Shown here: positions 4,084 through 24,848 of the stretch, piece by piece
Position numbering within the stretch: the first letter of the stretch is position 1
How the letters are laid out: each line of letters begins with the position of its first letter
Assembly: GCA_937904325.1 (NCBI GenBank)
Contig: CALGTK010000028.1
Coordinates: 1-49,462 of the forward strand
DNA: 49,462 bases
From: an uncultured Planctomyces sp.
GTDB lineage: Bacteria; Planctomycetota; Planctomycetia; Planctomycetales; Planctomycetaceae
Direction: 5' to 3'
Program-made: the position numbers and the translations under genes
Notes under the pieces: model-generated
Seen by the model: only the letters and a program-made list of their open reading frames with translations
The model's database searches: none
Told to the model about the DNA's origin: nothing

Positions 4084-4836
4084 TCATGAACAGCGGCAGA
4101 CTCGACAGTCAGGATTCCGTAGCACTCGCCGGTTCGCAAACTGCATGTCGCGAAGATCGAATGTCAGCAATGAACCAGCCAGTGATTCACCGAAGCCACC
4201 GAGCACTTTGACCGCTTCCATCGCTGCCATGCAGCCGACTGTTCCAGACACCGCTCCGAATACAGGAAACTCGCGACGCCACTCTGGCGGCTGCTCAGGA
4301 AACAGACAGGCGAGACACGGCGTCTGGCCGGGTATCACCGTCGTAATCTGAGCTTCCAGATCGTACATCGCGCATTCGATGATCGGTTTGTTCTGAAGCA
4401 CCGCCTGGCGATTCATCGCAAACCGTTCCTGAAACAGCGGCGCGCAGTCAACGACAAGGTCCGCCTGACTGACGAGTGACTCGGCATTCTCTTCCGAAAC
4501 ATTCTCGCCGACTGCGACGATGTCAAGTCGCGGGTTAAGTTCTTTGAGCCTTCGTTCTGCAGACTCAACACGCGGCTTTCCGAGCCAGTCGTGCGTCATC
4601 AGGAGCTGCCGATTGAGATCGCTGTGTTTCACGTTGCCGGCGTGTGCAAGCACGAGTTTGCCGACTCCGGCCGCCGCAAGTTCGTAAGCCACGACGCTAC
4701 CGAGGCCACCGACACGCGACACCAGAACTGAGGATCCTTTCAACTTCTCCTGGCCTGCTTCGCGAAAATCATCCACCCAGATTTGCCACTCGTACGTGGC
4801 CTTTTCTTCGTCGTTCAGTGGGAGCGGCTGAGGCAT
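4084..4836 (-). CDS. MoeB/HesA/ThiF-like E1 protein with altered active site
   Basis: A 250-residue relative of the E1-like enzymes that adenylate the C-terminal glycine of MoaD or ThiS. The overall fold aligns well: a VGGLGS nucleotide loop, DLNRQ with R76, two zinc CxxC pairs (C174/C177 and C244/C247), and the GTVGCMAAMEAVKVL helix. Yet key ATP-site residues differ from E. coli MoeB as I align it: YNRQ is YEWQ (arginine to tryptophan), the first loop glycine is R41, the DFD acidic pair is AHAG, the QPK lysine is R89, and the DCTD aspartate is P133. It may bind rather than adenylate its partner, or use a different chemistry. It is the last gene of the operon, after the MoaD-like carrier. Confidence 0.85.
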   Translation of the reverse strand: MPQPLPLNDEEKATYEWQIWVDDFREAGQEKLKGSSVLVSRVGGLGSVVAYELAAAGVGKLVLAHAGNVKHSDLNRQLLMTHDWLGKPRVESAERRLKELNPRLDIVAVGENVSEENAESLVSQADLVVDCAPLFQERFAMNRQAVLQNKPIIECAMYDLEAQITTVIPGQTPCLACLFPEQPPEWRREFPVFGAVSGTVGCMAAMEAVKVLGGFGESLAGSLLTFDLRDMQFANRRVLRNPDCRVCRCS

Positions 4837-4875: not shown

Positions 4876-5154
4876 TTAACCACCGGAAATCGGTGCCAGC
4901 AGTGTTACTGTAACGCCGTCCCGCAATGCGTCTGAAGCATTCCAACGTACCTGATCATCGCCGACGAACGGGATAATCGTTGTTTGCGGAGCACCGTCGG
5001 CTGTCTTCAGCATGCGAGACAACTCGTCACCGTGCCGATCGGCGATTGCATTGACGAGATCGACCAGCGAACTGGAATCATCCAGTTCAAAATTTTCTCG
5101 TGCAGCGCCCGACGCTCGCTTCAGCTGAGCGGTGTATTCGACCGTAACGACCAT
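4876..5154 (-). CDS. MoaD/ThiS-family sulfur carrier
   Basis: A 92-residue beta-grasp protein with the exposed C-terminal Gly-Gly that marks sulfur carriers: it ends in LLAPISGG, preceded by DGVTVTLL. In MoaD the last glycine is adenylated by MoeB and converted to a thiocarboxylate that supplies sulfur for molybdopterin. ATG start with GAGG about a dozen bases upstream. It sits between the oxyanion ABC transporter genes and the E1-like gene, which argues for a role in molybdenum or tungsten cofactor chemistry rather than thiamine. No MoaE is in the window, so the downstream acceptor is unknown. Confidence 0.85.
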   Translation of the reverse strand: MVVTVEYTAQLKRASGAARENFELDDSSSLVDLVNAIADRHGDELSRMLKTADGAPQTTIIPFVGDDQVRWNASDALRDGVTVTLLAPISGG

Positions 5155-5232: not shown

Positions 5233-5883
5233 TCACGACTCCGGTCGAACCTGCTGAATCTGCCCGTCCTCGATACGGAACAGGTAGTCGGCCAGTCGTT
5301 CGGCTTCGTCGCGATTATGCGTGACATGCAGAGTTGTCGTGCCAGTTTTCTTTTGAACGTCACTTAGTAATTCGCACATGCGAACTCGAGTGTCGTCGTC
5401 CAGCGCGCTCAACGGTTCATCCAGGCACAACACTTTTGGCTGAAAGGACAACGCGCGGCCCAGCGCAACTCGCTGCCGCTCTCCACCGCTGAGCCCTCGC
5501 GGCTTGCGATCGAGCAAGTGCTCAATCCCAAGCAATTCGGCAAGCTCTTCGACTCGCCGCTGACAGGCTAACTTTGGGGCCTTGCGAATCATCAGTGCAA
5601 AATCGAGGTGATCCCGCACGGTCATCGATGAAAACAACGCTCCGTCCTGTGGAACGTATCCCACTCCGCGAACGGCCGGGTTAAGCGTCGTGACATCCTG
5701 CTCGCCCAGCACAATTCGTCCAAGACTCACGCTGCGCAGCCCGAGCACGGTCTCAAGGATTGTCGTCTTACCAGATCCCGTCTTGCCCATCAGCACGCCG
5801 TACTTTCCACTCGGAACGGTCAACGACACGTTCTGAATGCGGAAATCTCCGGCTTGTACAGAAAGATTTTCGATCTGGATCAT
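5233..5883 (-). CDS. ABC transporter ATPase, molybdate/tungstate type
   Basis: A 216-residue ABC ATPase with Walker A GKTGSGKT, Q-loop in GYVPQDGALF, signature LSGGERQRVALGRAL, Walker B VLCLDEPLSALD and the switch histidine in LHVTHNRDEA. It lacks the C-terminal regulatory domain of long ModC proteins (about 350 residues), which fits the shorter Tup- or Wtp-like ATPases. It energises import through the adjacent permease at 5997-6941. The start ATG lies 113 bases after the permease stop and has no obvious ribosome-binding site. Confidence 0.9.
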   Translation of the reverse strand: MIQIENLSVQAGDFRIQNVSLTVPSGKYGVLMGKTGSGKTTILETVLGLRSVSLGRIVLGEQDVTTLNPAVRGVGYVPQDGALFSSMTVRDHLDFALMIRKAPKLACQRRVEELAELLGIEHLLDRKPRGLSGGERQRVALGRALSFQPKVLCLDEPLSALDDDTRVRMCELLSDVQKKTGTTTLHVTHNRDEAERLADYLFRIEDGQIQQVRPES

Positions 5884-5996: not shown

Positions 5997-6941
5997 TCAC
6001 TTAATGGCTTGATGGTCCGAACCGATCATTCGAGTCAGGATAAGGACGACAACTGCGGCCATCACCATGATGAATGAAACCGCGACGGCGGCTTCAATAT
6101 CGCCAACGTTCATTTCTAGAAAGACACTTGTCGAGAGAACTTCTGTTTTCATTCGAGTCGCCCCGGAAAAGATCAGCAGCGGACCGAACTCGCCGAGCGA
6201 TCTTGCCCACGCGAGTGTGAAAGCCGTAAGAATTCCGCGCTCGGCTTCCGGCAGCAGGACCCAGCCAAACGCCTGAGCCCGGCTACAGCCAAGTGTCACC
6301 GCGACATCTTCACAGCGAGGGTTAATGTGGTCGAACGTCGCTTTCATTGTGCGAACGGCAAAAGCGCACGCGACGGAAAACTGCGCCAATACAACGGACG
6401 GAACCTGATAAACGACATCGCGAGCGATCCACCGGAAAGGTGGAAACTGAAACAGGATCAGCAAGCTCAGGCCGATGACAAGCGGCGGTAGAACGATGGG
6501 AATATCAAGTACCGCGTCGAGTAGTTGTTTGCCGCGAAACTCATGACGTGAGATTAGATACCCCATCGGGATCGCGATCATGACCGAGATGACCGCCGAC
6601 ATCGTGCAGGAGATTAAACTCAACCAGATCGAGTGCTGGATTCGTTTGTCCGCCAGCGCAGTCGCGATCGGATTGTGAGAAATCACACTGAACAGTGATC
6701 TTCCTTCGCTTGTAATTCCGTCGAAAGTCTTTTCCGTCATGTAAGCGGCGTCGGCGATCAGCATGCCGACGATAAGTACGACATAAGTCCCACCCATGAC
6801 CACGAACAACGCATAAAAGATCGCGTTGGAAACGCCAATCTGTGACGCGCTCGGCTCGCGACCGGGCGATACTGCGTGACCTTCTGCTGAAGATTCAGGA
6901 GATGATCCGGGACCTTCTGAGGTTGGCGGAGTGGAGTTCAC
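5997..6941 (-). CDS. ABC transporter permease, molybdate/tungstate type
   Basis: A 314-residue inner-membrane permease with about six hydrophobic segments and the EAA loop EDVAVTLGCSRAQAFGWVLL followed by PEAERGI, which docks on the ATPase. The first 35 residues form a polar, proline- and serine-rich cytoplasmic tail that is unusual for ModB/TupB. The GTG start overlaps the stop of the binding-protein gene by four bases (GTGA), so the two are translationally coupled. Motif and context indicate oxyanion import; molybdate versus tungstate cannot be decided from sequence. Confidence 0.88.
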   Translation of the reverse strand: MNSTPPTSEGPGSSPESSAEGHAVSPGREPSASQIGVSNAIFYALFVVMGGTYVVLIVGMLIADAAYMTEKTFDGITSEGRSLFSVISHNPIATALADKRIQHSIWLSLISCTMSAVISVMIAIPMGYLISRHEFRGKQLLDAVLDIPIVLPPLVIGLSLLILFQFPPFRWIARDVVYQVPSVVLAQFSVACAFAVRTMKATFDHINPRCEDVAVTLGCSRAQAFGWVLLPEAERGILTAFTLAWARSLGEFGPLLIFSGATRMKTEVLSTSVFLEMNVGDIEAAVAVSFIMVMAAVVVLILTRMIGSDHQAIK

Positions 6942-8704
6942 GTTGCGTTGATTTCGCTGGTTGCGGTGGCTTCGACTGCTGGTGTGTGTTCAGCAGGCGA
7001 CTGCTTTGAGGCATCGCCGCTTTCCTCCTGATCCACTCCAAGTCGAAACCGAAATCCGGCTTTCTCGAACGAGTCTTTTGCATCGGCCACCCGAGCAAAA
7101 AGCCGTCTCACGAGATGCTTATGAACGCTCGTCCGTGCAATGCTGAAAGGCTGAATGGCCAGGTTCAGCGGAGATTCGATCTTGATAATGTCGATGTCTT
7201 TTCGAGTCGCCACCGTGTCAGTGATGTAAGCAATCGTGGCGTCAGCGTGTCTCGAAATAACATCCGGAATCAAGAGTGCCGACGATGATTTTTCAACAAC
7301 GACTTCACCGTCAGTTTTCTGCTTCTCTTTAAGTTTTTCGTACAAGCCCTGTTCCACCAGCATCCGCCGCGTCAACGCTCCAATTGTGCATTGTTCCGGC
7401 TGGCCAATCGAGACCCGAATACCTGGCTTGATCAAGTCTGCCGGAGTCTTCACCCGGTCAGAACCCTTCGGGACGACGATAACGATCTCGGCATCCGATA
7501 CGTTGGCGTCGTCCTGAAACCACTCTTTGACATTATCGAGGTAGTACCTGTCGCAGGCCATGTAGACATCAGGAAAACCAAGAGCCGGGCTTTGGCCATC
7601 GATCGTTTTCATCCTGCCAGTGAGAATTCCGCAGCCGTCGTAGACGGTGTTGACGCTGACGCCCTCACGCTCGGAAAACTCGTCGACCACCTGAGCGACC
7701 GCACGACGATTAATCGCCCCGCAGTAAAAAGTGATCTCGGGATTGTCGACCCAGATGTCTCCATCGACTGGCCGCATGCCGTATTTCTTGAAAACCGGCA
7801 GGCCGCGATCACTCGCCGCTATATAGCGGGCAAACTTCAACGCTGCAGTCGGCTGCTTCGAAGATGTCAGCACGCAGATGCTGATCAGGTTAGGGTCGCC
7901 GTCCAGCTCATCGACCGGAATGCCAATCAGCTTCTCACCGTACTTCGGCATGGCCACCGTCGAGTCCCAGACGATGCCCGCGTCTGCCGTACCGATGACC
8001 ACGTCGTTCGCAACATCGTTGACCGTCGGCTTGAAGACGCCAATGTCTGTCACATGCTCTTCGAGTTTTGTCCACAGATCGCTGTCGTCAACCTGGTGAG
8101 GCTTCAACCGCTTGCGAACAGCTCTCCCAACGGCTGCCTGTTCGGGGCTTCCCAGAGAAACTCGGACGTCCTCTTTCAGCAGATCACGGATCGACTGAAT
8201 CTTCTTCGGGTTGTCTTTCGCAACAGCGATGACCGGTCTCATGTACGCGATGGTGAGCCGCTCGTCCGCGAGGCCTTCTTCGTGAGCCTTGTCTGTGTAA
8301 AAGTCGTCGGCAGCCAGATAGAGGTCTGACGTGCCGAACTTATTGACCTGAATCTGGTTGAGCAGTGTGTTCGACCCGCCATACTGCAGCTCGATGTGAA
8401 CGCCGTACTGTTCTTCGTATTCGGCGGCAACTTCCTCGACCGGTACGCGAATCCCGGCCGCACAGTGCAGAACCAGCGTCTGACCTTTCGGAGCCTGCCC
8501 CGGCCCACCACGCGAAAGCAGGAACGCCGAAACGCCGATAACAGCGACACCGCCCGCCAATAACGCCCACAGCGCGTTGACTCGGCCGGATCGGTTTGGA
8601 GTGTCACGGCGCAATTGATGAAATTTCGTAGTTGGCGAATTCACAATTCGTGTCTCACGGGGCCAAACAGAAGACCTTTGAGTGTAGGAATCTGTGATTC
8701 TCAT
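6938..8704 (-). CDS. Tandem two-domain oxyanion-binding protein (ModA/TupA-like)
   Basis: A membrane-anchored protein of about 588 residues with two complete periplasmic binding domains in one chain. A hydrophobic segment lies at about 43-63, then domain 1 at about 76-315 (starts LVLHCAAGIRVPVEEV, with QYGGSNTLLNQI) and domain 2 at about 323-560 (starts ITFYCGAINRRAVAQV, with YDGCGILTGRM). Both carry the ModA-like order: strand plus CAAG/CGAI loop, GGS/GCG loop, DLYLAADD/DVYMACDR, then RVSLGSPEQ/RVSIGQPEQ. The ORF extends to a TTG at 8734; I choose the ATG at 8704, though no strong ribosome-binding site supports either. One-domain proteins of about 250 residues are the norm. Two sites per transporter could raise capture or select two ligands. 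Confidence 0.85.
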   Translation of the reverse strand: MRITDSYTQRSSVWPRETRIVNSPTTKFHQLRRDTPNRSGRVNALWALLAGGVAVIGVSAFLLSRGGPGQAPKGQTLVLHCAAGIRVPVEEVAAEYEEQYGVHIELQYGGSNTLLNQIQVNKFGTSDLYLAADDFYTDKAHEEGLADERLTIAYMRPVIAVAKDNPKKIQSIRDLLKEDVRVSLGSPEQAAVGRAVRKRLKPHQVDDSDLWTKLEEHVTDIGVFKPTVNDVANDVVIGTADAGIVWDSTVAMPKYGEKLIGIPVDELDGDPNLISICVLTSSKQPTAALKFARYIAASDRGLPVFKKYGMRPVDGDIWVDNPEITFYCGAINRRAVAQVVDEFSEREGVSVNTVYDGCGILTGRMKTIDGQSPALGFPDVYMACDRYYLDNVKEWFQDDANVSDAEIVIVVPKGSDRVKTPADLIKPGIRVSIGQPEQCTIGALTRRMLVEQGLYEKLKEKQKTDGEVVVEKSSSALLIPDVISRHADATIAYITDTVATRKDIDIIKIESPLNLAIQPFSIARTSVHKHLVRRLFARVADAKDSFEKAGFRFRLGVDQEESGDASKQSPAEHTPAVEATATSEINAT

Positions 8705-8734
8705 CACAACGACGCGGCGAGAGTGGCCGAACAA

Positions 8735-9406
8735 TCAAGCAACCGCCGCCGTATCCAGCTTTCCGTCGCGAAGATGAATGACTCGATCAGCTGTCGCCGC
8801 GGCCTGAGCATCGTGCGTGACCAGCAGGACGGCTCCGCCCGACGCTGCAAACTTGCGGAGGTGTTTCAAGACTTCGGTCGCGTTCTCTGTATCGAGGTTT
8901 CCGGTCGGCTCGTCGGCCAGCAGCACCTTTGGCTCATTCAACAATGCACGAGCGAGAGCCGTGCGTTGCCGCTCGCCACTGCTGAGTTCTCCCGGCGTGT
9001 GTTCGAAGCGGTGCGAGAGACCAAACTGGTCGAGCAGCTCGCGAGCCCGTTGTTCAGCGTCTTTAGAACCCGTTGCGATGCTGGGGGCCAGCGCGTTATC
9101 CAGTACGGACAGGTATGGGACGAGATGAAACTGCTGAAAGACGAAGCCGATGTTATCCGCTCGGAATTTCGATCGAGCATCGGCCGTTAAGGCGTACGGG
9201 TCTTCGCCACCGATTTGAACGCTGCCCGATTCAGGCGTGAGCAAGCCCCCGGCAAGCAGTAACATCGTCGACTTGCCACAGCCGCTTGGTCCCTGAATGG
9301 CAACGAACTCGCCACCGTCAACTGACAGGCTGACGTCATCGACGGCGAGCACTTGCCCGCTCGCTCCCTGGTACGTCTTTCTGGCGTCCTGAATGTCGAC
9401 AAGCAT
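8735..9406 (-). CDS. ABC ATPase of the LolD/MacB type
   Basis: A 223-residue ATPase with Walker A GPSGCGKST, the Q-loop in FVFQQFHLVPYLSV (typical of LolD, MacB and FtsE relatives), signature LSSGERQRTALARALL, Walker B VLLADEPTGNLD and the switch histidine LLVTHDAQ. These ATPases drive FtsX-fold permeases that move lipoproteins, peptides or transmit mechanical signals rather than import solutes. Its partner is the FtsX-type permease encoded 127 bases upstream in the same run (9534-10889). The binding-protein gene follows almost directly. Confidence 0.9.
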   Translation of the reverse strand: MLVDIQDARKTYQGASGQVLAVDDVSLSVDGGEFVAIQGPSGCGKSTMLLLAGGLLTPESGSVQIGGEDPYALTADARSKFRADNIGFVFQQFHLVPYLSVLDNALAPSIATGSKDAEQRARELLDQFGLSHRFEHTPGELSSGERQRTALARALLNEPKVLLADEPTGNLDTENATEVLKHLRKFAASGGAVLLVTHDAQAAATADRVIHLRDGKLDTAAVA

Positions 9407-9533: not shown

Positions 9534-10889
9534 CTATTCGGCCTGCAGCACCAGGGCCGGGTCGCGACCGGCGGCCATCTGTGCCGGCAGCCAGCTCGCA
9601 ACTGCTGAGAAGATCGGAGCCAGCAATGGCGTCATCACAACGGTCATGAAGACGGTACTGGTTTCGAAAATTCGCTGCCATGTATCTCCGTAAGGTGGAA
9701 GACCTCCAAACTGAATTCCGATCAGCACACCAGTCGCCGCTCCAATGATTCCACCGATCAAACCAATCAGGCCGGCCTTGACTAAAAAGATCGCCAGCAC
9801 CTGCTTTGAACTCAGGCCAATGGCTCGCAGAATACCGATCTCGCTGTTGCGCTGCCGCACGTTGCCGAACGTCAGGAAGCCGATCCACAACGCGCAGCCG
9901 ATCAGCACGAGCGGAACGAGGATCTCCACAAGGCCGGCTCGTTGGTTTTGAATTTCGGTTCGCGACTGAGTTTCGCGAGCCAGCGCCGCTTGCCCCGCTT
10001 CCTGTTCGGCCGTCAAAGCACTTTCAGCGGCAACTTTGGCCTTGGCTCTGGACTCAGCTCGTGTCAGTGCCTGAGAGTGTTTCTCGATCACGTTTGTGCC
10101 GGGCAGAATCCCGGCGATTTCTTCTCGGATCTGACTGATACGATCGCCGGTGCAGCCGCACTCCAAAGCGAGAATCGCGTTAATGACATTCTCCATGCCA
10201 AGCATTTTCTGAGCTTCGGCCAGGTCGATCCAGACAGTCACGTCGTCGGACGACCCGCGTTCGGGGTGCAGTGTCTTAACCGTGAACTCGTTACCGAGCA
10301 GCGTGACTTTATCTTCCGTCTTCAGTCCAAGCTTCGAGTGAATCTGATAGCCGACGACCATCGTACCCGCCGGTACGGCGTCCAGCAGTGGCTTCTTCAG
10401 CCCACGGTGCATGATGGGAACTTCGCCGCGAGTTCCCTGCACGATGACATCGATCTCTTTCTCCGGCCACGCGACGCGTTTCGTCACACTCGGCAGAAGA
10501 TGATTGATCGTCACAATCTTTGAACTGGCCAGTTTGTCGACGTAGCTCTCGGGCATTGTCTCGGTCAATGTTCCGTTCAGATGCAGCTCCGAGAGGTCCT
10601 GATTCTCAGGCACAATCAATACGTTGAAACCGAGCTTGAGCATGTCCTTTCGAACCGAATCTTCCAGAGCCTTGCCGGCGACAGCAACATCTTCTTCACG
10701 CGTGGCGATGGCCGCTTCAATTTCAGACTGTTTTTCGGCCAGGATCGCTTCCGTTTGAATCTCGTCCGAACGAAGCAGCGTCTGAGCGCCGACCAGACAT
10801 GTAATCGCGACCGTCACCGACAACAGCGACAACACAACGTTTACCTTGCGATGTTTCATCTCTCGAAGAACGAGTCGCCAGACGCTCAT
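9534..10889 (-). CDS. FtsX-type ABC permease
   Basis: A 451-residue permease of the LolC/MacB architecture: one membrane helix near residues 18-38, a large extracytoplasmic domain, then three C-terminal helices with the conserved RQRNSEIGILRAIGLSSKQV coupling region. The periplasmic part is framed by long charged helices (about 50-80 and 280-315, rich in A, E, Q and R), which suggests a stalk. ATG start with AGAGGAAA a few bases upstream. Its ATPase follows at 8735-9406, and the secreted protein at 10971-12176 precedes it and may be its client or periplasmic partner. Confidence 0.88.
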   Translation of the reverse strand: MSVWRLVLREMKHRKVNVVLSLLSVTVAITCLVGAQTLLRSDEIQTEAILAEKQSEIEAAIATREEDVAVAGKALEDSVRKDMLKLGFNVLIVPENQDLSELHLNGTLTETMPESYVDKLASSKIVTINHLLPSVTKRVAWPEKEIDVIVQGTRGEVPIMHRGLKKPLLDAVPAGTMVVGYQIHSKLGLKTEDKVTLLGNEFTVKTLHPERGSSDDVTVWIDLAEAQKMLGMENVINAILALECGCTGDRISQIREEIAGILPGTNVIEKHSQALTRAESRAKAKVAAESALTAEQEAGQAALARETQSRTEIQNQRAGLVEILVPLVLIGCALWIGFLTFGNVRQRNSEIGILRAIGLSSKQVLAIFLVKAGLIGLIGGIIGAATGVLIGIQFGGLPPYGDTWQRIFETSTVFMTVVMTPLLAPIFSAVASWLPAQMAAGRDPALVLQAE

Positions 10890-10970: not shown

Positions 10971-12176
10971 TCAGGACGGCTTCGGTGCAAATACGACGGA
11001 CATGCCGACCACCAGAAGAGCCAATCCGCCGACAACGTAGATCGCCAGCTTACCGACACTGACTGCCGGTGCCTCTGTCATCTCCGTGGTACTTCCGGCT
11101 TGGGGTGTGGAAGCCGCCACCGACGTTTCGTCCGTCGCCTCTTTGCTGGATGTAACAGCGTCTGCGTGATCCGCGGCGTGTGAATGGTCATGCGAATGCC
11201 CGTCGTCCTCTTTTCCAAATCCGCTCAGGCCAGCCAGAGCCGGAAGAATCGTGTCCTTTTCAAGCGTTGGCACGACAAGTCTGTCCCAATCAACGCTCGT
11301 CAGAATGTCGACGCCTGGATTCTGAGCTTTGACGGTGCACTGACATGCTCCGGTGAGGAAGCGGCCGGCGTCTTCAATTGTTTCCGCATTGATGCCTTTT
11401 CCGATTAACGCGTACAGCGCTCGACCGCGTCCGAAGACCGGCAGCGCCATTGGCTCGTTGGCGAATTCCGGGTCGCGCAGATCGGGCTCGACCGTGAGTA
11501 ACATCTGCACAAACGCCTGTTCCTGAGCATCGTCTTTCGCCACGGTGATCATCGAAAACCGCAGCTTCAGATCATCAGGATTTACTGAGAGAAACCCGTC
11601 CTCAATATCCTGCTCGTCGATCTCCGGCAGTTTGAGTTCACCCTGCAGGCGTTTGAGTTCTCCCCGCATGATTTCTTCAGCCGCCGCGTCTTTGGCTGCG
11701 TCGCCCGACTTCAGTAGAACCCAGACGACCGAGTCGCCTTTCAGAATGGCGTCGGTAATTTTCTTTCGCAGCGGCGAGTCGAGCAGACTGGTGACGTTCT
11801 CCTCGTTGAATTCCTGCGAGACGACCTTCAGCGGCTTCCCAAACTTCGCCGGAGACCGCACCAGCATCCACGGCAGTGTTTTTGTCTCTTGCTGCTCCCA
11901 GAGCTCGACCAGAGCGGCATCGGGCGCCGCATCAAGATCGACCGTCCTCACCCAGGCGTTCGCCGTGTAAGAGGCGTCGATATTTTTCGGCTCGACTTTC
12001 GCTGCCAGTTCTTTCTGGGCATCCGACAGCGGCCCTTGATGAAAGACAATGACTTCGAAGCTGTCCGGTCGCCATTGCTCAAGCGCGTAGCGAAAGACGG
12101 GCACCGAGCAGGCCTGCGCACTGGCAGCGGCCATCAGCGCTGCCAGAACGCCCAACGTAATTATCGATCGAATCAT
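10971..12176 (-). CDS. Secreted, C-terminally anchored protein with His-rich tail
   Basis: About 401 residues. A signal peptide (MIRSIITLGVLAALMAAASA) is followed by QACSVPVFRYALEQWRPDSF, a motif I associate with a family of unknown function in planctomycetes. A CQC pair lies in the second half (FLTGACQCTVK), followed by a histidine/aspartate-rich stretch (EDDGHSHDHSHAADHADA) and a C-terminal membrane helix. I choose the second ATG because GGAGG lies nine bases before it and abuts the first. The His-rich and Cys-pair segments suggest metal binding, which is inference. It is the first gene of the eight-gene run, next to the LolD/FtsX-type transporter. Confidence 0.75.
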   Translation of the reverse strand: MIRSIITLGVLAALMAAASAQACSVPVFRYALEQWRPDSFEVIVFHQGPLSDAQKELAAKVEPKNIDASYTANAWVRTVDLDAAPDAALVELWEQQETKTLPWMLVRSPAKFGKPLKVVSQEFNEENVTSLLDSPLRKKITDAILKGDSVVWVLLKSGDAAKDAAAEEIMRGELKRLQGELKLPEIDEQDIEDGFLSVNPDDLKLRFSMITVAKDDAQEQAFVQMLLTVEPDLRDPEFANEPMALPVFGRGRALYALIGKGINAETIEDAGRFLTGACQCTVKAQNPGVDILTSVDWDRLVVPTLEKDTILPALAGLSGFGKEDDGHSHDHSHAADHADAVTSSKEATDETSVAASTPQAGSTTEMTEAPAVSVGKLAIYVVGGLALLVVGMSVVFAPKPS

Positions 12177-12371
12177 TCCGCACATCCTCCGTTATCGAAT
12201 TTCGAATATGCAACAGCATACCGCGACAACAGCCGGATGACACCGAACGCAGCTGTCGGTCGCTAAGTGGAATCGCCAAAAGACGCCGAGTGCGTATGAA
12301 CGATCCGAGCGTGTTCATATAGTGACAGGTCGATTTTCATCTGAAAGACAGTTGCTCGACGGGAGTTTGCA

Positions 12372-15300
12372 ATGCCACGGTTTGCTCGACTTCGCAGGAT
12401 TGTTTGTGCTCGACGCTGTTTCGCGGTGGCTGCCGCCGCAGTCGGACTGACCCTTCTGGTTTCACCAGACCTGCTGGCCGAAGACTGGCCGACTTACCGG
12501 CGCGACAATGACCGTTCCGGATCGACGCTGGAGAAAATCGGCGGACCGCTCCACCTTCAATGGACCTATTCGCCACCCGCTCTCCCGCGACGAGCCTGGT
12601 CAGAAGCCGGCGGTCGCACGATGGAGGGGCACATCATTAAAGATCGGGTCAGATATGACGACGCGTTCCAACCAGTCGTGGTGGGTCAACGCGTTTACTT
12701 TGGCTCAACCGCCGACGATCAGGTGCACTGCCTCGACCTGACCTCGGGCAAAACGTTGTGGTCATTTTTTACCGGAGCACCGGTTCGACTCGCACCGACC
12801 GTCTATAAAAAATCGATCTACTTCGGATCGGATGACGGATTCGCTTACTGCCTGGACGCGGTGTCCGGCAAACTGATCTGGAAGCTTCGAGCCGGTCCGG
12901 CGGACGAATGGTTCCTTGGCCGTGGCCAGATGGTCTCGCGCTGGCCGATCCGCACGGGAGTTCTCGTCGACAACGACGTCGCTTACTTCGGAGCCGGCAT
13001 CTTCCCGCACGAAGATGTTTACCTGCACGCTGTGGATGCAAAGACCGGCGAAGTCGTCTGGACGCGTGACGACATTAGCGAGAACGACGCTGCTCGAGAC
13101 GACCTGTCGCCACAGGGCTACCTGCTGGCCAGCAAGACGCAAATATTCGTTCCTTCGGGGCGATCCATGCCGGCAACGTTCGATCGCAAAGACGGAATAC
13201 TGCTTCACAAGAAAACTTATAGCTGGCGCAGCACGGCGGGCGGAGTCGTCGGTGGCACGCGAGCACTTCTGGCCGACGGGCAGATTTACTCCGGCGGCGC
13301 TCACCACCTGCTCGCCATCGCTCAGGACGATGGCGACGTCGGCTTCGGCTGGTTCGAAGGCCGACAGATGGTTGTCTCGGGCGACGAAGCAGCCATCGCA
13401 ACGGGAACGGCCATCGCCAGAATCGATCGCATGAAATACGCGGTGAACAGCCGCCGAACTCACAAGATCGAAATGGACCTCTACAGCCTGTCGAGATCAC
13501 TCCGCAGTGCGAAGGGTGACAAAGCGACGGAAATCCGAGCAAAGATGAAGGCTCTGCAGACCGAGCAAAAAGAACTGGCATCGGTCGGCGTAACTTGGCA
13601 GAAACCGAACGAGCACGACGCCTCACTTCTGATGACCGGCGACATGATCATCTCCGGCGGCAACGGCGAAGTGTTTGGCTATAATCTCGAAACCGGTGAA
13701 CAGACTCTGAAGCTGGCAGTCGACGGCGAAGCTCGCGGACTGATCTTTGCCAACGAAAACCTCGTCGTCAGTACAACGACCGGCCAGGTCTTCTGCTTTG
13801 GCGCGGGCGAACCAGGCGACACGGCGCTTGCCAAAGCAAAGAAATACCCGAATCCGTACGCGGAGGACGATGCTTCAAAACTGGTCAGCGATGCCGCCGA
13901 TCAGATCGTCAAGGAAACCGGCGTCACGCGAGGCTTCTGTCTGGTCGCCGGCAGCGAAGACGGACGCCTTGCTTATGAACTGGCCAAACGAACGGAGCTC
14001 AGCATTTACTGCATCGAGCCTGACGCTGAGAAAGTCCGAAAGTCTCGCGAACTGTTGAACAAAGCTGGTCTCTACGGAAGCCGCGTTGCCGTACATCAGG
14101 CAGAACTGTCCGCCATTCCTTACTCAAACTTCTTCGCCAACCTGATCGTTTCCGACACATATCTGCGAATGGGCGAGTTACCAGGTGATTCGCGATTGAT
14201 CATGCGGCATCTTAAACCGCTCGGCGGAGTCGCCTGGTTGTCGTCGCCGGTTCAATCGAAAGCCAGTCCCGTCGAAATCGACTGGCTGCACGAAGCTGGA
14301 CTGACAAAGGAAGAAGCTTCAGTCAAATCAGCAAAGTCCAGCACAACGCTTGCCCGCGGTGCACTGCCCGGAGCCGGTAACTGGTCACACCAGTACGGCA
14401 ACGTCGGCAATACAGCCGTCATCGACGAGAAGCGAGTGAAGGGCGATCTGGGAGTTCTGTGGTTCGGCGATCCCGGCCCGGGAGACATGGTCAACCGTCA
14501 CGAAGGAGCCGTCGGGCCGCTGTCAGTTAACGGCCGACTCTTCGTGCAGGGCGAAGCGACCATCTCCGCGTTCGACGCTTACAACGGTCTCTTCCTCTGG
14601 AAATACGAAAACGAAGAAGCCATCCGCAGTGGTGTGTTTCAGAATCAGAACCCCGGCAACCTCGCTACCAGTAACGATCACCTGTTCCACTTCATGAAGG
14701 ACGAATGCTTCCAACTGGACGCGGCCACCGGAAAGGTGGTCGCCGTTCATCGACTGCCGCCAGACATGGACAACGACACTCGAGAGTGGGGCTACGTAGC
14801 GTATATTAACGATCGATTGATCGGTACGGCGACTGTTCGAGCGGACGTCGAAGCCAAGTACCGGCGCCGAGGCCGCAAGACCACGGAATCAACCGATGGC
14901 ATTTTTGCGATCGACGTCAAAACCGGAAAGCACCTTTGGACGTACACGGGCGGCAGCATTTCACACCGCACGATCGCCCTCAGTGATGACGAAGTTTTCT
15001 TCATCGACAGCACGATTACCAGCGCCGAACGCGAGCGAATTCTCCGCGAAGATAAATCAGAAATCGAACAGCTTTCTGGCGAAGAACTGAAGATCGCCGA
15101 AGACCGCATGAAGAAACTGGACGCTCGCACGGCTGTCGCGATTGACGCTGAAAACGGCAAGAAGATCTGGGCCGTCGGAGTCGACGTCACCGACTGCAGC
15201 GAAATCGGTATCGGTGGCGGCAAGCTGACAATGATGTACCAGGACGGCGTCCTTGTCCTCTGCGGAGCCAACGCCAACGGGCACTACTGGAAACAGTTTA

Positions 15301-16346
15301 TATCAGGCGAGTTCAAGCGTCGCCGACTGGTCGCCCTCTCTGCCGAAGCTGGTTACACGATGTGGAAGAAGGACGCGAACTATCGGCACCGTCCGATCGT
15401 CGTTGGAAATCGAGTCATCGCCGAACCTTGGTCGTTCGAACTGAGCACAGGCGAGCAGCACACGAAGACTCACCCACTGACCGGCCAGGAAGTTCCGTGG
15501 AGCATGATTCGTCCTGGCCACCACTGTGGTATGCTCACCGGCTGCGAGAGCATGCTGATGTTCCGTTCGGGCTACACTGGCTTCTACAACCTGGACAACG
15601 ACGAGGGTACTCGCCACTTCGCCGGCCATCGCCTTGGCTGCTGGATCAACGCCATTCCCGCCAACGGCCTGGTCATGATTCCTGAAGCCAGCGCCGGTTG
15701 CGTCTGCCAGTTCTCAATCGCTTCAACGATCGTCCTCGAACCGCGACAGGCTCGCCGCCCCTGGACGATCATCAGCGCAACCGGTGCTCAGACTCCAGTC
15801 AAGAAAATGTCACTGAACCTTGGGGCGCCCGGCGACCGTCGAGCCGCCGACGGAACCTTATGGCTCGCCTATCCAAGACCGAATCCTCACAAGGTTACCA
15901 GTCTGGACCTGGCCTTCGACCTTAAACCCAAATTCACCGCCGGAGGCTTCACCAGCGTCAATGCCGCCGCCCAACCAGTCACCGGAGCCGCAACTCCCTG
16001 GCTCTACACTTCATGGGCTAGCGGATTGAGCGAAATAACGCTGCCACTTCGAGGCGAAAAAGATCGCCCGGCAACCTACGACCTCAAGCTGCACTTCGCT
16101 CAACTTCGAGAAGGCACGGCTAGATTCGACATCGAGATTAACGGCAAAGTCGTCCTCACCGACGTCGAAGTCAGCCGCGTACGAGGCTCCGAACCCGTCG
16201 CTCAGGTAAAAGCCATTCCCGGCATCGACGTCGAACGAGACCTCACGATGAAGCTTATTGCCAAAGTCTCCGACGACGCCAAAGCAAGAGTCGTCCTGAA
16301 CGCGATCGAGGTGCTGCGGAAGACTGAAGTCGCAAGTACTAAATAA
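12372..16346 (+). CDS. Secreted double PQQ-type propeller with inserted methyltransferase-like domain
   Basis: A 1324-residue secreted protein. A signal peptide (about 1-36) precedes EDWPTYRRDNDRSGST, the usual start of planctomycete PQQ-like propellers. Propeller blades (repeats such as LDLTSGKTLWSF, LDAVSGKLIWKL, VDAKTGEVVWTR) fill about 40-500. Residues about 512-626 are different: GFCLVAGSEDGRLAYELAKR, then YCIEPDAEKVRKSRELL and ANLIVSDTYL, the pattern of a SAM-methyltransferase-like Rossmann domain. A second propeller follows (about 665-1140), then a malectin-like beta-sandwich (about 1185-1320, LKLHFAQLREGTARFDIEIN). GGGAG seven bases before the ATG supports the start. A polysaccharide-related role is possible through the malectin-like end; no cofactor is proven. 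Confidence 0.88.
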   Translation: MPRFARLRRIVCARRCFAVAAAAVGLTLLVSPDLLAEDWPTYRRDNDRSGSTLEKIGGPLHLQWTYSPPALPRRAWSEAGGRTMEGHIIKDRVRYDDAFQPVVVGQRVYFGSTADDQVHCLDLTSGKTLWSFFTGAPVRLAPTVYKKSIYFGSDDGFAYCLDAVSGKLIWKLRAGPADEWFLGRGQMVSRWPIRTGVLVDNDVAYFGAGIFPHEDVYLHAVDAKTGEVVWTRDDISENDAARDDLSPQGYLLASKTQIFVPSGRSMPATFDRKDGILLHKKTYSWRSTAGGVVGGTRALLADGQIYSGGAHHLLAIAQDDGDVGFGWFEGRQMVVSGDEAAIATGTAIARIDRMKYAVNSRRTHKIEMDLYSLSRSLRSAKGDKATEIRAKMKALQTEQKELASVGVTWQKPNEHDASLLMTGDMIISGGNGEVFGYNLETGEQTLKLAVDGEARGLIFANENLVVSTTTGQVFCFGAGEPGDTALAKAKKYPNPYAEDDASKLVSDAADQIVKETGVTRGFCLVAGSEDGRLAYELAKRTELSIYCIEPDAEKVRKSRELLNKAGLYGSRVAVHQAELSAIPYSNFFANLIVSDTYLRMGELPGDSRLIMRHLKPLGGVAWLSSPVQSKASPVEIDWLHEAGLTKEEASVKSAKSSTTLARGALPGAGNWSHQYGNVGNTAVIDEKRVKGDLGVLWFGDPGPGDMVNRHEGAVGPLSVNGRLFVQGEATISAFDAYNGLFLWKYENEEAIRSGVFQNQNPGNLATSNDHLFHFMKDECFQLDAATGKVVAVHRLPPDMDNDTREWGYVAYINDRLIGTATVRADVEAKYRRRGRKTTESTDGIFAIDVKTGKHLWTYTGGSISHRTIALSDDEVFFIDSTITSAERERILREDKSEIEQLSGEELKIAEDRMKKLDARTAVAIDAENGKKIWAVGVDVTDCSEIGIGGGKLTMMYQDGVLVLCGANANGHYWKQFISGEFKRRRLVALSAEAGYTMWKKDANYRHRPIVVGNRVIAEPWSFELSTGEQHTKTHPLTGQEVPWSMIRPGHHCGMLTGCESMLMFRSGYTGFYNLDNDEGTRHFAGHRLGCWINAIPANGLVMIPEASAGCVCQFSIASTIVLEPRQARRPWTIISATGAQTPVKKMSLNLGAPGDRRAADGTLWLAYPRPNPHKVTSLDLAFDLKPKFTAGGFTSVNAAAQPVTGAATPWLYTSWASGLSEITLPLRGEKDRPATYDLKLHFAQLREGTARFDIEINGKVVLTDVEVSRVRGSEPVAQVKAIPGIDVERDLTMKLIAKVSDDAKARVVLNAIEVLRKTEVASTK

Positions 16347-20111: not shown

Positions 20112-23100
20112 TTACAGGGACTGTTCCTGAAGTGGAATTTGGTTTCTGAGGCGTCTGAATTGAATATCGATCCGGCTGTTGATCCCGTGGAGTTGTAGTT
20201 CACCCGCGTCTCGATCGATCTGATAGTGCACAATTCTGTCCTTAATCATAGCTGCGGACTCCACAAAATTTTCGCCAGTCATGCGGTCAATCACTCGCAC
20301 TTCAAGCGAACGCATGCTGCTTGATCGTTTTGGACTGACTCGCGAAAGACCAACCAGAAATGGCAGCGAGCATCGATCAGTTCTAACGAAGCTCCGTTGC
20401 TGCACTGGCGTTTTCCAGATGAGCTTTCCCGTCTGTCGAGAAATGGCGATCAGAAAACCACGATGAACATGGTTGACTGGGACGACCGAATCACTTGCCA
20501 GTGAATAAATCTTGCTTGTATGGCTTGCGATGTCAGACCGTTGAATGTTGACATAGATGTTTCGCTCATCAGAGAAGAGTCGCATCGATGATATGTATTC
20601 GATATCTGCCGGAGATAGCTTCATGTCGACAAGCGTCTTCGCCGAATCGACAGAAATTACTCGAAGCCGCGAATTAGAAGTCACCAAAGCCAACTCGTTT
20701 TGTGACGATCGCGCTGAGTTGAACCGGTCAAACAGTTCTTCATCAAGTTCCATCTTGTTTGTTAGAGGGTCCCAGATACGAACTCGCTTTCTGGATGAAC
20801 CTGTTTCCCGCGTCTGATGAAACAATTTTCTTCCGAATACGTGGTGTCGATAGCGGAAGTCGACACTCATTTGGCCTTTACGAATCACCTCGCCAGTCTG
20901 TGTCGAGAATACGGTGTAGCTCGACTGGTCCGCATGAAACATCACAAGCACCTGTTCGTCGCCAAACAATCCGGCTTCACGGTCCACTCTAATGCCGCTG
21001 GCGAGGTCAAGATCCGATCGGCGCCAAAGTACACGCCCCGTTGCCGGATCGATTCCGAAGAGGTGCTTGCGAGTCTGAAAAATACACACTGAAGGAGTGG
21101 CAGGACCAGGCTCGATCAGTTCCTGACCAGATTCAAGTGGAGGAAAACTCAGTTCCCAGTATGGGCGTGCATCGTGATACTCAAGTAAAGAAACCGATCG
21201 CATTCCAGCGCCGGTTCCCACAGGCATCAGATGTCCCACCGTTCGATATCCCGCAGCACCTGGCATTGTCACTCTGCCAGGCATTCTGATGCTGCCTCGT
21301 TCGGTCCCCGCAAGGCGATCGAGAATTCTCCACTCGCTCTGCAAACTGCTTGAATTACGAACGATATCGAATTCCGATTGTTGACCATAAATCACTCGCC
21401 GTGAATAGCTGCTCCACAAATCCGATGTCAGTGGATTCGACGCTCCCAACGTTTGCTGCCGGACTCTGACGCTCCTCACTTTCCAGTCGAGAGGGTGCAA
21501 ATCCTCAAAGACTTGCAGTGCGGATTCGTCACCAGAGAAGAGGCTTACAAACGCGGCACCTGTCAGAGAGTCGGGGGCACCTTCGCGGTTAGACTCACGG
21601 TCGAGGGGCTTCAGCACCGCGTAAACTGTTTGCAATCGGTCCTCAATGACAGCACGCAAATCCGCTGTTCGAAATTCCTTTTCAAACTGGTAAAGCGCAT
21701 TGCCAGCTTCAGAACTGAGCTTCAACTGGCTCCAGAGTGAAATTAGAAGTGCTTTCGCCACTGCGCGAACATTCAAGTCGGAGTGTGAGGCATTCTGAAG
21801 GATCAACAACTCCGCTTGCTGGACTTGTCCTGATTGAATCAATCGATCAGCAAGCCTGTTTCGAACTCGTCCAGTTTCTGCTGTTGCTGCGTACACGTTG
21901 AGAAAGCTACTCAAACTGTCGATCGTATCCAGGGACAGTGCGACTTGCAGATCCCGCTCGATTAAATCCTGGAGTTGCGACCGGGCTGGAAATGTCGAAG
22001 TCTGCAGACTTTGTTGAACGACATCCCTCGCGTAGACATCTGCGGCTACAAGGCAATCAGGAGAACCTCTCATTGGAATGAATGAGTCGAGCCCTGAGTC
22101 AATTGCCTGTCGGATCAACCCAACGGCCGCTACCGACGAGCCATTCTCGGTTTGCCACTGCGCCTGCTGAACGAGAGCGTAGGCTTGTTCCTTCGGTTGT
22201 TTCGAGAATTCGGCTAACTGCTCGATCATGTGGCGTCTTTGCGTTGCAGTCAGCGAAGACCGAGGCTCGTTTAATCGCCGATTGATTAACTCACGCAATA
22301 ACCACTTTGCGCGATCAACAGACTGTGAGTCCAGCTTCAGAGAATTGCCATCCGGTGATGCAATCATCTTCGCCAAACGATCTACCGCCGCATCTTCTCG
22401 ATTGGCCGCAACTTCAAGTTGAGCAACACGCAATTCGTCGACCGGTTGCTTGCTGTCTTTTTTTTTCAGCAACTCGTCGAGAAGCGATTGTGCTTCGGAA
22501 AAGGCGGTCAGATGCTGAGGCCCCACCGAAAAAACCAAGCCGTCATGAAACAAAAGATTGCCCGGCCGAACTTCGTTGGGAACTCTTTGATCGTCAAGAC
22601 CAAACAGCGAAAGGTTGTACTCACGAAGCCCGATCAACCTTCCGTCATCAGTACGGCGTGAACTCAGGTAGCGTTGATTTGAAAGTTCAGGAACGATGGA
22701 AGATGTCGTCCATTGGCCAGTTCCAAGGTCAACACTCGCGATGCCGCCTGACTTCAGTGGAAGAACATACTGATTTTCAATTCTGACGCCGCGGCCCGAT
22801 GGCAGGCCAGTCCGAGCGGTCCACAGAAGACTTCCGTCGGTCAGCGACAGACCTCGCATCCCATCATTCTGCACACTGGCGACAGTCTGATCTGTAATCG
22901 CAGCCAGGTAAGCATCTTTGTCGCGTTTAACTTTCCAGACTCGCTGCCCCGTATGCAGGTCCAGGCGATGAATATCCTCAGAATGTTGCGGAAGACAGAA
23001 AACGGAATGGCGATGAATAATCGGCGCGGAAGGAAACCCTCGAAATCCTCCACGCGAGGTCAAGGATGACCGCCTCGATCGACCGGGCAGGCCATCACGA

Positions 23101-24848
23101 CCGTATGAATAGATCCACTTCAATTCTCCCTGCGCGGCATCGACTGTGACGATGATTTCTGCGTCCGGCTGGCAGATAACCAGTCCGTTTGCGATTGTCG
23201 GCAGCGCCATCGGCAAATCTCGTGAACGCTGACTCGTTTCGAAACTTGGCTGTTGAACGAGGCCGATTTTCTGGATCCAGACGACGCGCCCCGTTGCGGC
23301 TTCGAGTTTTACGAGATTTAATTCTCGATCACGTCGCGATTCCGAAATCACAAAAAGCGAATCGTCGACCGGACGAGGAGCACCGAGAAAAAGCTGATCA
23401 GCCAATGGACCAGTATCGGCCGACCCGCCGACAGACCATGACGGCTTGACGATCTCGGCTGCGTCGTCATGGTCGTCCGCCCTGGCTGGAATATTCAGGC
23501 ACACAAGCCGGTTGGATGCTCGTATTGAAGATCCGCCGCCCGGGATGGCTACTTGTTCGAACTTGAGCCAGTCGATGGCGAAGACTCGTTTGCCATCTGT
23601 AGTCACGATGCCCTGGGCGGAATTTTCAGCCCAGGCTGTTTCGATCAATGACACCGAGCGGCCGGGAGTTGCCTGTCGTAACTCACTGACGAATTCCGGT
23701 ACTGAAAGTGTCGCATTGAACCGCCAGTTGAGGCGACCATTTTTTGGGTCACAGCTCCTGATGCCGTACAGATCGCGAACGATTAATTGCTGCTGCGTGA
23801 TGATGGGAAAGACTGACGCGCCGGTCTCAGCAAGTTCATCGTAAGAACGCTGCTGTTCCCAAATGGCCAGTTTATCGAAAGGTCGATTTCCGTAGAGTGG
23901 CTTGGTCCAGACGGGTGCGAGGTACGGGACGGAGCCGCAACTTTCGCCATTGTTCGTGGGGTTGCCAAATGGGTCACTTGCTGGCGAATCCATTACTGGG
24001 GTCGCAAAGTGTGGATGGTTTTTCGCGACAACTTCGATCGACTTTGCTGTGAAGCGGACGCTGCCAAATAATGCGACCGCTTCGGCAACCACCGTTCGAG
24101 CCTGGTCTTTGTCACCTGACAGGAACAGTGACGTCGCAGCTTTCTCGAACAGCCGAGGGTTTAGTCGATTTCGATGGATAGTCGAATGAATAATACGAAG
24201 CCATAGTTTCGCTGCCAGAGCAGCCTCGCCGCGATCGAGCAATCTTGTGGCGGCTTCGTCAGTAGCTTGAGCACCAGCCAGTGTCGGGAAACATCGTCGG
24301 GCAACTTCGAGATAAGCGGCCGACCGACCGGACGCTCGAGCAGCCTGCAGAGCGCTGCTGGCCGTTTCGGAATATTTCTTCTCGTAGAAGTTCAACTGGT
24401 CGCGAGTCAGCGACTCGAAAACCATCAGGGTTTCGCGGCGGACGCTGCGAAGCCGCCCGTTCGCCAGAACAAAACTATCTGACGGGGCACGATTCCAGTC
24501 CTGCGCTGGTGCCAGCAATTCCTGAGGATCACCTAATAGTGACTGCAACGCTTCGAAGGCCAGGCTTAGCTCATCATCTTTCAGATACTGACGAGCCCGC
24601 TCTAGCAGAATCGTGGCTCGACGTTCAAAGTAGACGACGTCGCGGAGGGCCATGATCTCGGCGGCCGACAAAACAGGCTCCTTCGCAACGTTTCCTGGTG
24701 CCTGCGGAGGAACGTTCACGTTGAGTTTGATATTTGGGGGCGTCTGTGCCACGACCGGCCGTGTCAGAACGAATGGCAGACAGCCAACAATAGCGCCTGC
24801 AATCAGCAGACTCGGCAATCGTTTGATTGTCAAACAGACAGCACGCAT
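20112..24848 (-). CDS. Very large secreted PQQ-type propeller/helical-repeat protein
   Basis: A 1578-residue protein with a signal peptide (to about residue 34, ending VVAQ). Residues about 60-290 are helical, TPR-like (YLKDDELSLAFEALQSLLGD). A PQQ-like propeller spans about 310-780 (KNGRLNWRFNATL, EAATGRVVWIQKIGL, DAAQGELKWIYSYG, DLHTGQRVWKVKR). A second helical region covers about 780-1130 and a second propeller about 1180-1540 (DPATGRVLWRRSDL, SRQTGKLIWKTPVQ). No conserved PQQ-ligating set is evident, so it is more likely a scaffold or sensor than a dehydrogenase. AAGGAG six bases before the ATG supports the start. The architecture recalls the 12372-16346 protein without its methyltransferase-like insert. 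Confidence 0.85.
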   Translation of the reverse strand: MRAVCLTIKRLPSLLIAGAIVGCLPFVLTRPVVAQTPPNIKLNVNVPPQAPGNVAKEPVLSAAEIMALRDVVYFERRATILLERARQYLKDDELSLAFEALQSLLGDPQELLAPAQDWNRAPSDSFVLANGRLRSVRRETLMVFESLTRDQLNFYEKKYSETASSALQAARASGRSAAYLEVARRCFPTLAGAQATDEAATRLLDRGEAALAAKLWLRIIHSTIHRNRLNPRLFEKAATSLFLSGDKDQARTVVAEAVALFGSVRFTAKSIEVVAKNHPHFATPVMDSPASDPFGNPTNNGESCGSVPYLAPVWTKPLYGNRPFDKLAIWEQQRSYDELAETGASVFPIITQQQLIVRDLYGIRSCDPKNGRLNWRFNATLSVPEFVSELRQATPGRSVSLIETAWAENSAQGIVTTDGKRVFAIDWLKFEQVAIPGGGSSIRASNRLVCLNIPARADDHDDAAEIVKPSWSVGGSADTGPLADQLFLGAPRPVDDSLFVISESRRDRELNLVKLEAATGRVVWIQKIGLVQQPSFETSQRSRDLPMALPTIANGLVICQPDAEIIVTVDAAQGELKWIYSYGRDGLPGRSRRSSLTSRGGFRGFPSAPIIHRHSVFCLPQHSEDIHRLDLHTGQRVWKVKRDKDAYLAAITDQTVASVQNDGMRGLSLTDGSLLWTARTGLPSGRGVRIENQYVLPLKSGGIASVDLGTGQWTTSSIVPELSNQRYLSSRRTDDGRLIGLREYNLSLFGLDDQRVPNEVRPGNLLFHDGLVFSVGPQHLTAFSEAQSLLDELLKKKDSKQPVDELRVAQLEVAANREDAAVDRLAKMIASPDGNSLKLDSQSVDRAKWLLRELINRRLNEPRSSLTATQRRHMIEQLAEFSKQPKEQAYALVQQAQWQTENGSSVAAVGLIRQAIDSGLDSFIPMRGSPDCLVAADVYARDVVQQSLQTSTFPARSQLQDLIERDLQVALSLDTIDSLSSFLNVYAATAETGRVRNRLADRLIQSGQVQQAELLILQNASHSDLNVRAVAKALLISLWSQLKLSSEAGNALYQFEKEFRTADLRAVIEDRLQTVYAVLKPLDRESNREGAPDSLTGAAFVSLFSGDESALQVFEDLHPLDWKVRSVRVRQQTLGASNPLTSDLWSSYSRRVIYGQQSEFDIVRNSSSLQSEWRILDRLAGTERGSIRMPGRVTMPGAAGYRTVGHLMPVGTGAGMRSVSLLEYHDARPYWELSFPPLESGQELIEPGPATPSVCIFQTRKHLFGIDPATGRVLWRRSDLDLASGIRVDREAGLFGDEQVLVMFHADQSSYTVFSTQTGEVIRKGQMSVDFRYRHHVFGRKLFHQTRETGSSRKRVRIWDPLTNKMELDEELFDRFNSARSSQNELALVTSNSRLRVISVDSAKTLVDMKLSPADIEYISSMRLFSDERNIYVNIQRSDIASHTSKIYSLASDSVVPVNHVHRGFLIAISRQTGKLIWKTPVQQRSFVRTDRCSLPFLVGLSRVSPKRSSSMRSLEVRVIDRMTGENFVESAAMIKDRIVHYQIDRDAGELQLHGINSRIDIQFRRLRNQIPLQEQSL

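Follow-up and report, generated by a model that had tools for sequence, protein, structure and literature searches.

The closest described relatives of the receptor presented here are the ModA proteins (TIGR01256; E. coli structures 1amf and 1wod, C. difficile structure 4kd5), whose genes, as at our locus, adjoin those of a ModB-type permease and an ATPase. In P. aeruginosa ModA, the oxyanion receives a hydrogen bond from Thr60 and a contact from Ala79 (PMC9171197), and in an A. baumannii ModA a redox-sensitive disulfide lowers the affinity for molybdate (PMC11734730). Receptor domains in series are known from GlnPQ of Lactococcus lactis, in which tandem domains with distinct specificities (PMC8025302) apparently serve one ABC importer. 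Pocket cysteines that link a periplasmic binding protein to a soft species are known from the arsenite sensor AioX, which binds arsenite through cysteine in its pocket (PMC5908839). The open-access literature searched yielded no description of a fused tandem ModA. The locus described below resembles each of these systems in part. It differs from ModA in having two domains on a membrane-anchored chain, the second with cysteines at the positions equivalent to Ser39 and Ala58; from GlnPQ, where receptor domains for amino acids are part of the permease chain, in that the domains here are of the ModA type and the permease is a separate ORF; and from AioX, ArxX and ArrX, which are PhnD-related and go with a sensor kinase, in that its best matches are ModA and its neighbours a permease and an ATPase.

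In the window (the whole 49,462-nucleotide planctomycete stretch that was analysed), the receptor is encoded on the minus strand at 6938-8734, giving 598 amino acids from a TTG codon. Residues 1-48 are poorly conserved, conservation setting in only around residue 49, which leaves the choice of start codon uncertain; the start used in the initial annotation, 8704, corresponds to Met11. A single hydrophobic helix, the predicted membrane anchor, lies N-terminal to both domains (residues 55-73, 8516-8572, minus strand; hydropathy 2.27 over 19 residues). It is followed by a ModA-like domain 1 (d1, residues 85-324, 7763-8482, minus strand), which keeps the anion-binding serine as S121, and by domain 2 (d2, residues 325-565, 7040-7762, minus strand), with the ModA fold and a pair of cysteines at pocket positions. 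The Pfam model SBP_bac_11 matches twice in tandem, both times above its cut-off (d1 156.6 bits, d2 76.4 bits), in agreement with the earlier reading of two complete substrate-binding domains on one anchored chain. The two domains align with 29% identity (E 7e-17); a comparison of their profiles gives a probability of 99.9%. With the ModA model TIGR01256 the whole tandem scored 113.9 bits against a curated cut-off of 62.5; d1 alone reached 81.4 bits and d2 alone 37.4, below the cut-off. Phosphonate-bd gave only 30.7 bits, SBP_bac_11 227.7. Structure prediction, which the initial annotation had proposed as a check on both halves, returned a ModA fold for the second: the AlphaFold model of d2 alone (12 rows) had a pLDDT of 78.9 and best matched ModA 4kd5 (Z 19.7, rmsd 3.4 over 218 residues), followed by other ModA chains, with VIA-align Z of 17-20 and Foldseek E of about 1e-11 to 1e-10 against ModA structures. 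This model is weakest in lobe 1 around the cysteine loops (block-mean pLDDT 55-72). The model of the whole tandem (6 rows) was poor (pLDDT 49.9), so that the ModA fold of d1 rests on its sequence match.

The fusion is not confined to this locus and is probably old. A sequencing error or a hidden gene boundary, raised in the initial annotation as a possible source of the double domain, is ruled out by the recurrence of the uninterrupted fusion across many genera and families. Relatives in the same genus carry the same fusion at 82-94% identity and, in an even draw of 392 Planctomycetota genomes, about 49 had both domains in one frame or part of a tandem at a contig edge, spread over some fifteen families. 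The domain distances of d1 correlate with those of d2 (Mantel r 0.78, a value reached in none of 2000 permutations), as would be expected if a single ancient fusion had been passed down whole. In the tree, d2 forms one clade (SH-aLRT 100, pocket columns removed), apart from d1 and from the single-domain relatives, which cluster with d1. At least one of these single-domain relatives, L055, falls within a supported d1 group and has therefore probably lost d2, as judged from the tree. Another, at L059 2932-3790 (plus strand), is split over two frames, probably by a frameshift. One contig scan returned only five close relatives. The viral contig scans yielded no relatives, the phages gave no match, and no plasmid match covered 80% of the query, the best being annotated single ModA genes.

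The single permease and single ATPase reported downstream were confirmed. The permease (5997-6941, minus strand, 314 aa) is of the ModB/WtpB type with an extra N-terminal hydrophobic peak, and the importer-type ATPase (5233-5883, minus strand, 216 aa) best matches positions 1-212 of the 347 of WtpC and thus has no C-terminal part. In ModC and WtpC proteins, the C-terminal part carries a regulatory domain. Further downstream lie genes for a MoaD/ThiS-like protein (4876-5154, minus strand) and a MoeB/ThiF-like adenylyltransferase (4084-4836, minus strand). No Rfam family reached its gathering score in the window. The tandem is the sole match above cut-off to the ModA model in its genome, which also encodes four clear molybdopterin oxidoreductases; the most probable role of d1 is therefore to hand molybdate to the permease, the substrate of d1 being assigned by family only.

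The residues of the pocket set the two domains apart. In a domain alignment of 37 d1 and 37 d2 sequences, which included E. coli ModA from MG1655, the position of Ser39, oxyanion-binding in ModA, is Ser or Thr in all 37 d1 (here Ser121, codon 8372-8374, minus strand) and Cys in all 37 d2 (Cys368 of a GCG motif, codon 7631-7633, minus strand). The position of Ala58 is Ala or Gly in 37/37 d1 and again Cys in 37/37 d2 (Cys394 of an ACD motif, codon 7553-7555, minus strand). From their place in the fold rather than from an alignment, we take Thr60 and Ala79 of P. aeruginosa ModA to be the equivalents of these two residues. A third cysteine, Cys449 (QCTIG motif, codon 7388-7390, minus strand), is aligned with Val123 of E. 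coli ModA and is less constant among d2 domains (Cys in 22/37, Ser in 13/37). At ModA Ser12, d2 is hydrophobic (Val, Met or Ile), and at Val152 it has mostly Ser, Gly or Ala; the equivalent of Tyr170 is Tyr in all 37 d2 (here Tyr503, codon 7226-7228, minus strand). It should be said that d1, too, is mostly without Ser12, where 29/37 have Gly, and without Tyr170, where 31/37 have Trp. With a similar mean identity (44% for d2, 46% for d1), 20 columns are invariant in d2 and only 7 in d1; d2 is therefore not a decaying copy. Its two invariant cysteines, at positions that in ModA belong to the first shell of the pocket, suggest that d2 binds something other than molybdate or acts as a chemical switch.

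A parallel arrangement exists in other planctomycete families (loci L090-L102), where two ModA-like receptors stand beside one ModB and one ATPase, either as separate genes or, in L094, L095 and L102, fused in the opposite order. In one of the two receptors, position 58 is His in all of the sequences aligned (11/11). These systems share with the tandem two ModA-like receptors per importer and a residue of metal-ligand type at position 58, and differ from it in belonging to a separate clade, in having His instead of Cys and in the order of the fused domains. The tree does not place the His clade as sister to d2, so residues of metal-ligand type may have appeared here on two separate occasions. 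MoaD and MoeB were not found adjoining the L090-L102 loci.

The genes upstream of the receptor encode a LolD/MacB-type ATPase (8735-9406, minus strand), a permease with an FtsX domain (LolC/E, MacB-like; 9534-10889, minus strand) and an orphan protein that we call u404 (10971-12185, minus strand). By eye, u404 has a signal peptide and a C-terminal helix. Its Cys26 and a CxC motif are invariant, it also contains a His-rich stretch, and it gave no PDB match, no convincing Pfam match and no NCBIfam match. One or more of the three proteins u404, FtsX and LolD are encoded near 24 of 36 tandem loci versus none of 9 single-domain loci. Genome-wide in the 392-genome draw, with three ambiguous genomes left out and the class lists compiled by hand, u404 was present in 40/49 tandem genomes, 9/12 two-gene genomes and 2/328 others, that is in 49 of the 61 two-domain or two-gene genomes versus 2 of the remaining 328; nine of the 49 tandem genomes had no u404. 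Within the family of the window's organism, a count made by hand gave u404 in 31/32 tandem genomes versus 0/23 others (Fisher p 1e-14, a value that, like the counts of the wider draw, ignores shared ancestry). The u404 gene is often unlinked to the tandem, sometimes lying on another contig or megabases away, and is often encoded with an FtsX/LolD-type transporter. Use of the molybdenum cofactor was considered as the cause of this association and rejected: MoaA and molybdopterin oxidoreductases were each present in 41/42 genomes of both classes. Both classes thus make the cofactor, and molybdenum use by itself does not account for the association between tandem and u404.

Our tentative best explanation, to which we give somewhat less than an even chance, is that delivery falls to d1 and that d2 has a ModA fold rebuilt around a putative dithiol for a thiophilic ligand, acting in conjunction with u404, FtsX and LolD. 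In this scheme, d1 would supply the ModB-type importer with molybdate or a similar oxyanion. Rather than being a second oxyanion scoop, d2 would capture a soft metal ion or a metalloid with its pocket dithiol and might work with the u404/FtsX/LolD module, either to give the importer an additional specificity or to gate it as a sensor. The invariant pair of cysteines, the many invariant columns and single clade of d2, its modelled ModA fold, the His at position 58 in the parallel clade, the co-occurrence of u404 with the flat cofactor control and, by analogy, the precedent of AioX argue for this scheme; its thiophilic pocket we likewise hold to be possible but short of probable. The low confidence of the d2 model around the cysteine loops, the nine tandem genomes with no u404 and the changes at Ser12 and Tyr170 in d1 itself weigh against it. 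If d2 does bind a thiophilic ligand, a few substitutions at known contact positions have converted the ModA fold from recognising oxyanions to recognising soft metals, and a molybdenum importer found in many planctomycetes receives a second input. The orphan u404 then gains its first functional partner and offers a handle on an uncharacterised planctomycete system. A more specific form, in which d2 would define a class of dithiolate ModA-fold receptors for a soft metal or metalloid such as copper(I) and would couple molybdenum uptake to a hitherto undescribed periplasmic metal-handling module of u404, FtsX and LolD, is speculative and in our judgement unlikely.

The main rival to a thiophilic ligand is that d2 is a redox switch, in which a disulfide between the pocket cysteines would close or open the pocket and tune uptake to the oxidation state. 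The redox-sensitive disulfide of A. baumannii ModA is a precedent, the two invariant cysteines lie in two pocket loops of d2, and the invariant CxC of u404 would suit such a role. Yet the A. baumannii cysteines, as estimated from residue numbers, occupy other places than the cysteines of d2, and position 58 of the partner clade is His instead of Cys, a finding more in keeping with metal binding than with a disulfide. We regard a switch as rather unlikely. The initial annotation had proposed that both domains may bind oxyanions with differing preferences, or may pass a ligand between them, in front of one importer; the tandem domains of GlnPQ, with their distinct specificities, share an importer in this manner. 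That d1 and d2 have different ligands is plausible, both domains are related to ModA structures, and d2 keeps Tyr170 throughout. The claim that d2 is an oxyanion receptor does not sit well with the pocket, in which Ser39 and a second pocket residue are replaced by Cys in 37/37 d2 and two further ligand positions, Ser12 and Val152, have also changed. Moreover, the same genome encodes a separate TupA-like (tungstate receptor) protein, recognised by eye (L003 1441-2352, minus strand), so that tungstate needs no second domain; two oxyanion receptors on one chain are improbable in our view. Finally, the single-domain relatives adjoin the same permease type, d2 is therefore not needed for the basic arrangement and could in principle have a purely structural or docking function in the receptor and bind no ligand, but pocket-loop residues are among the invariants of d2, which is not expected of a spacer and makes this very improbable.

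Beyond u404, the window also encodes very large PQQ-type beta-propeller proteins, one of 1324 aa at 12372-16346 (plus strand) and one of 1578 aa at 20112-24848 (minus strand). Relatives of the former recur near the tandem receptor at many loci.
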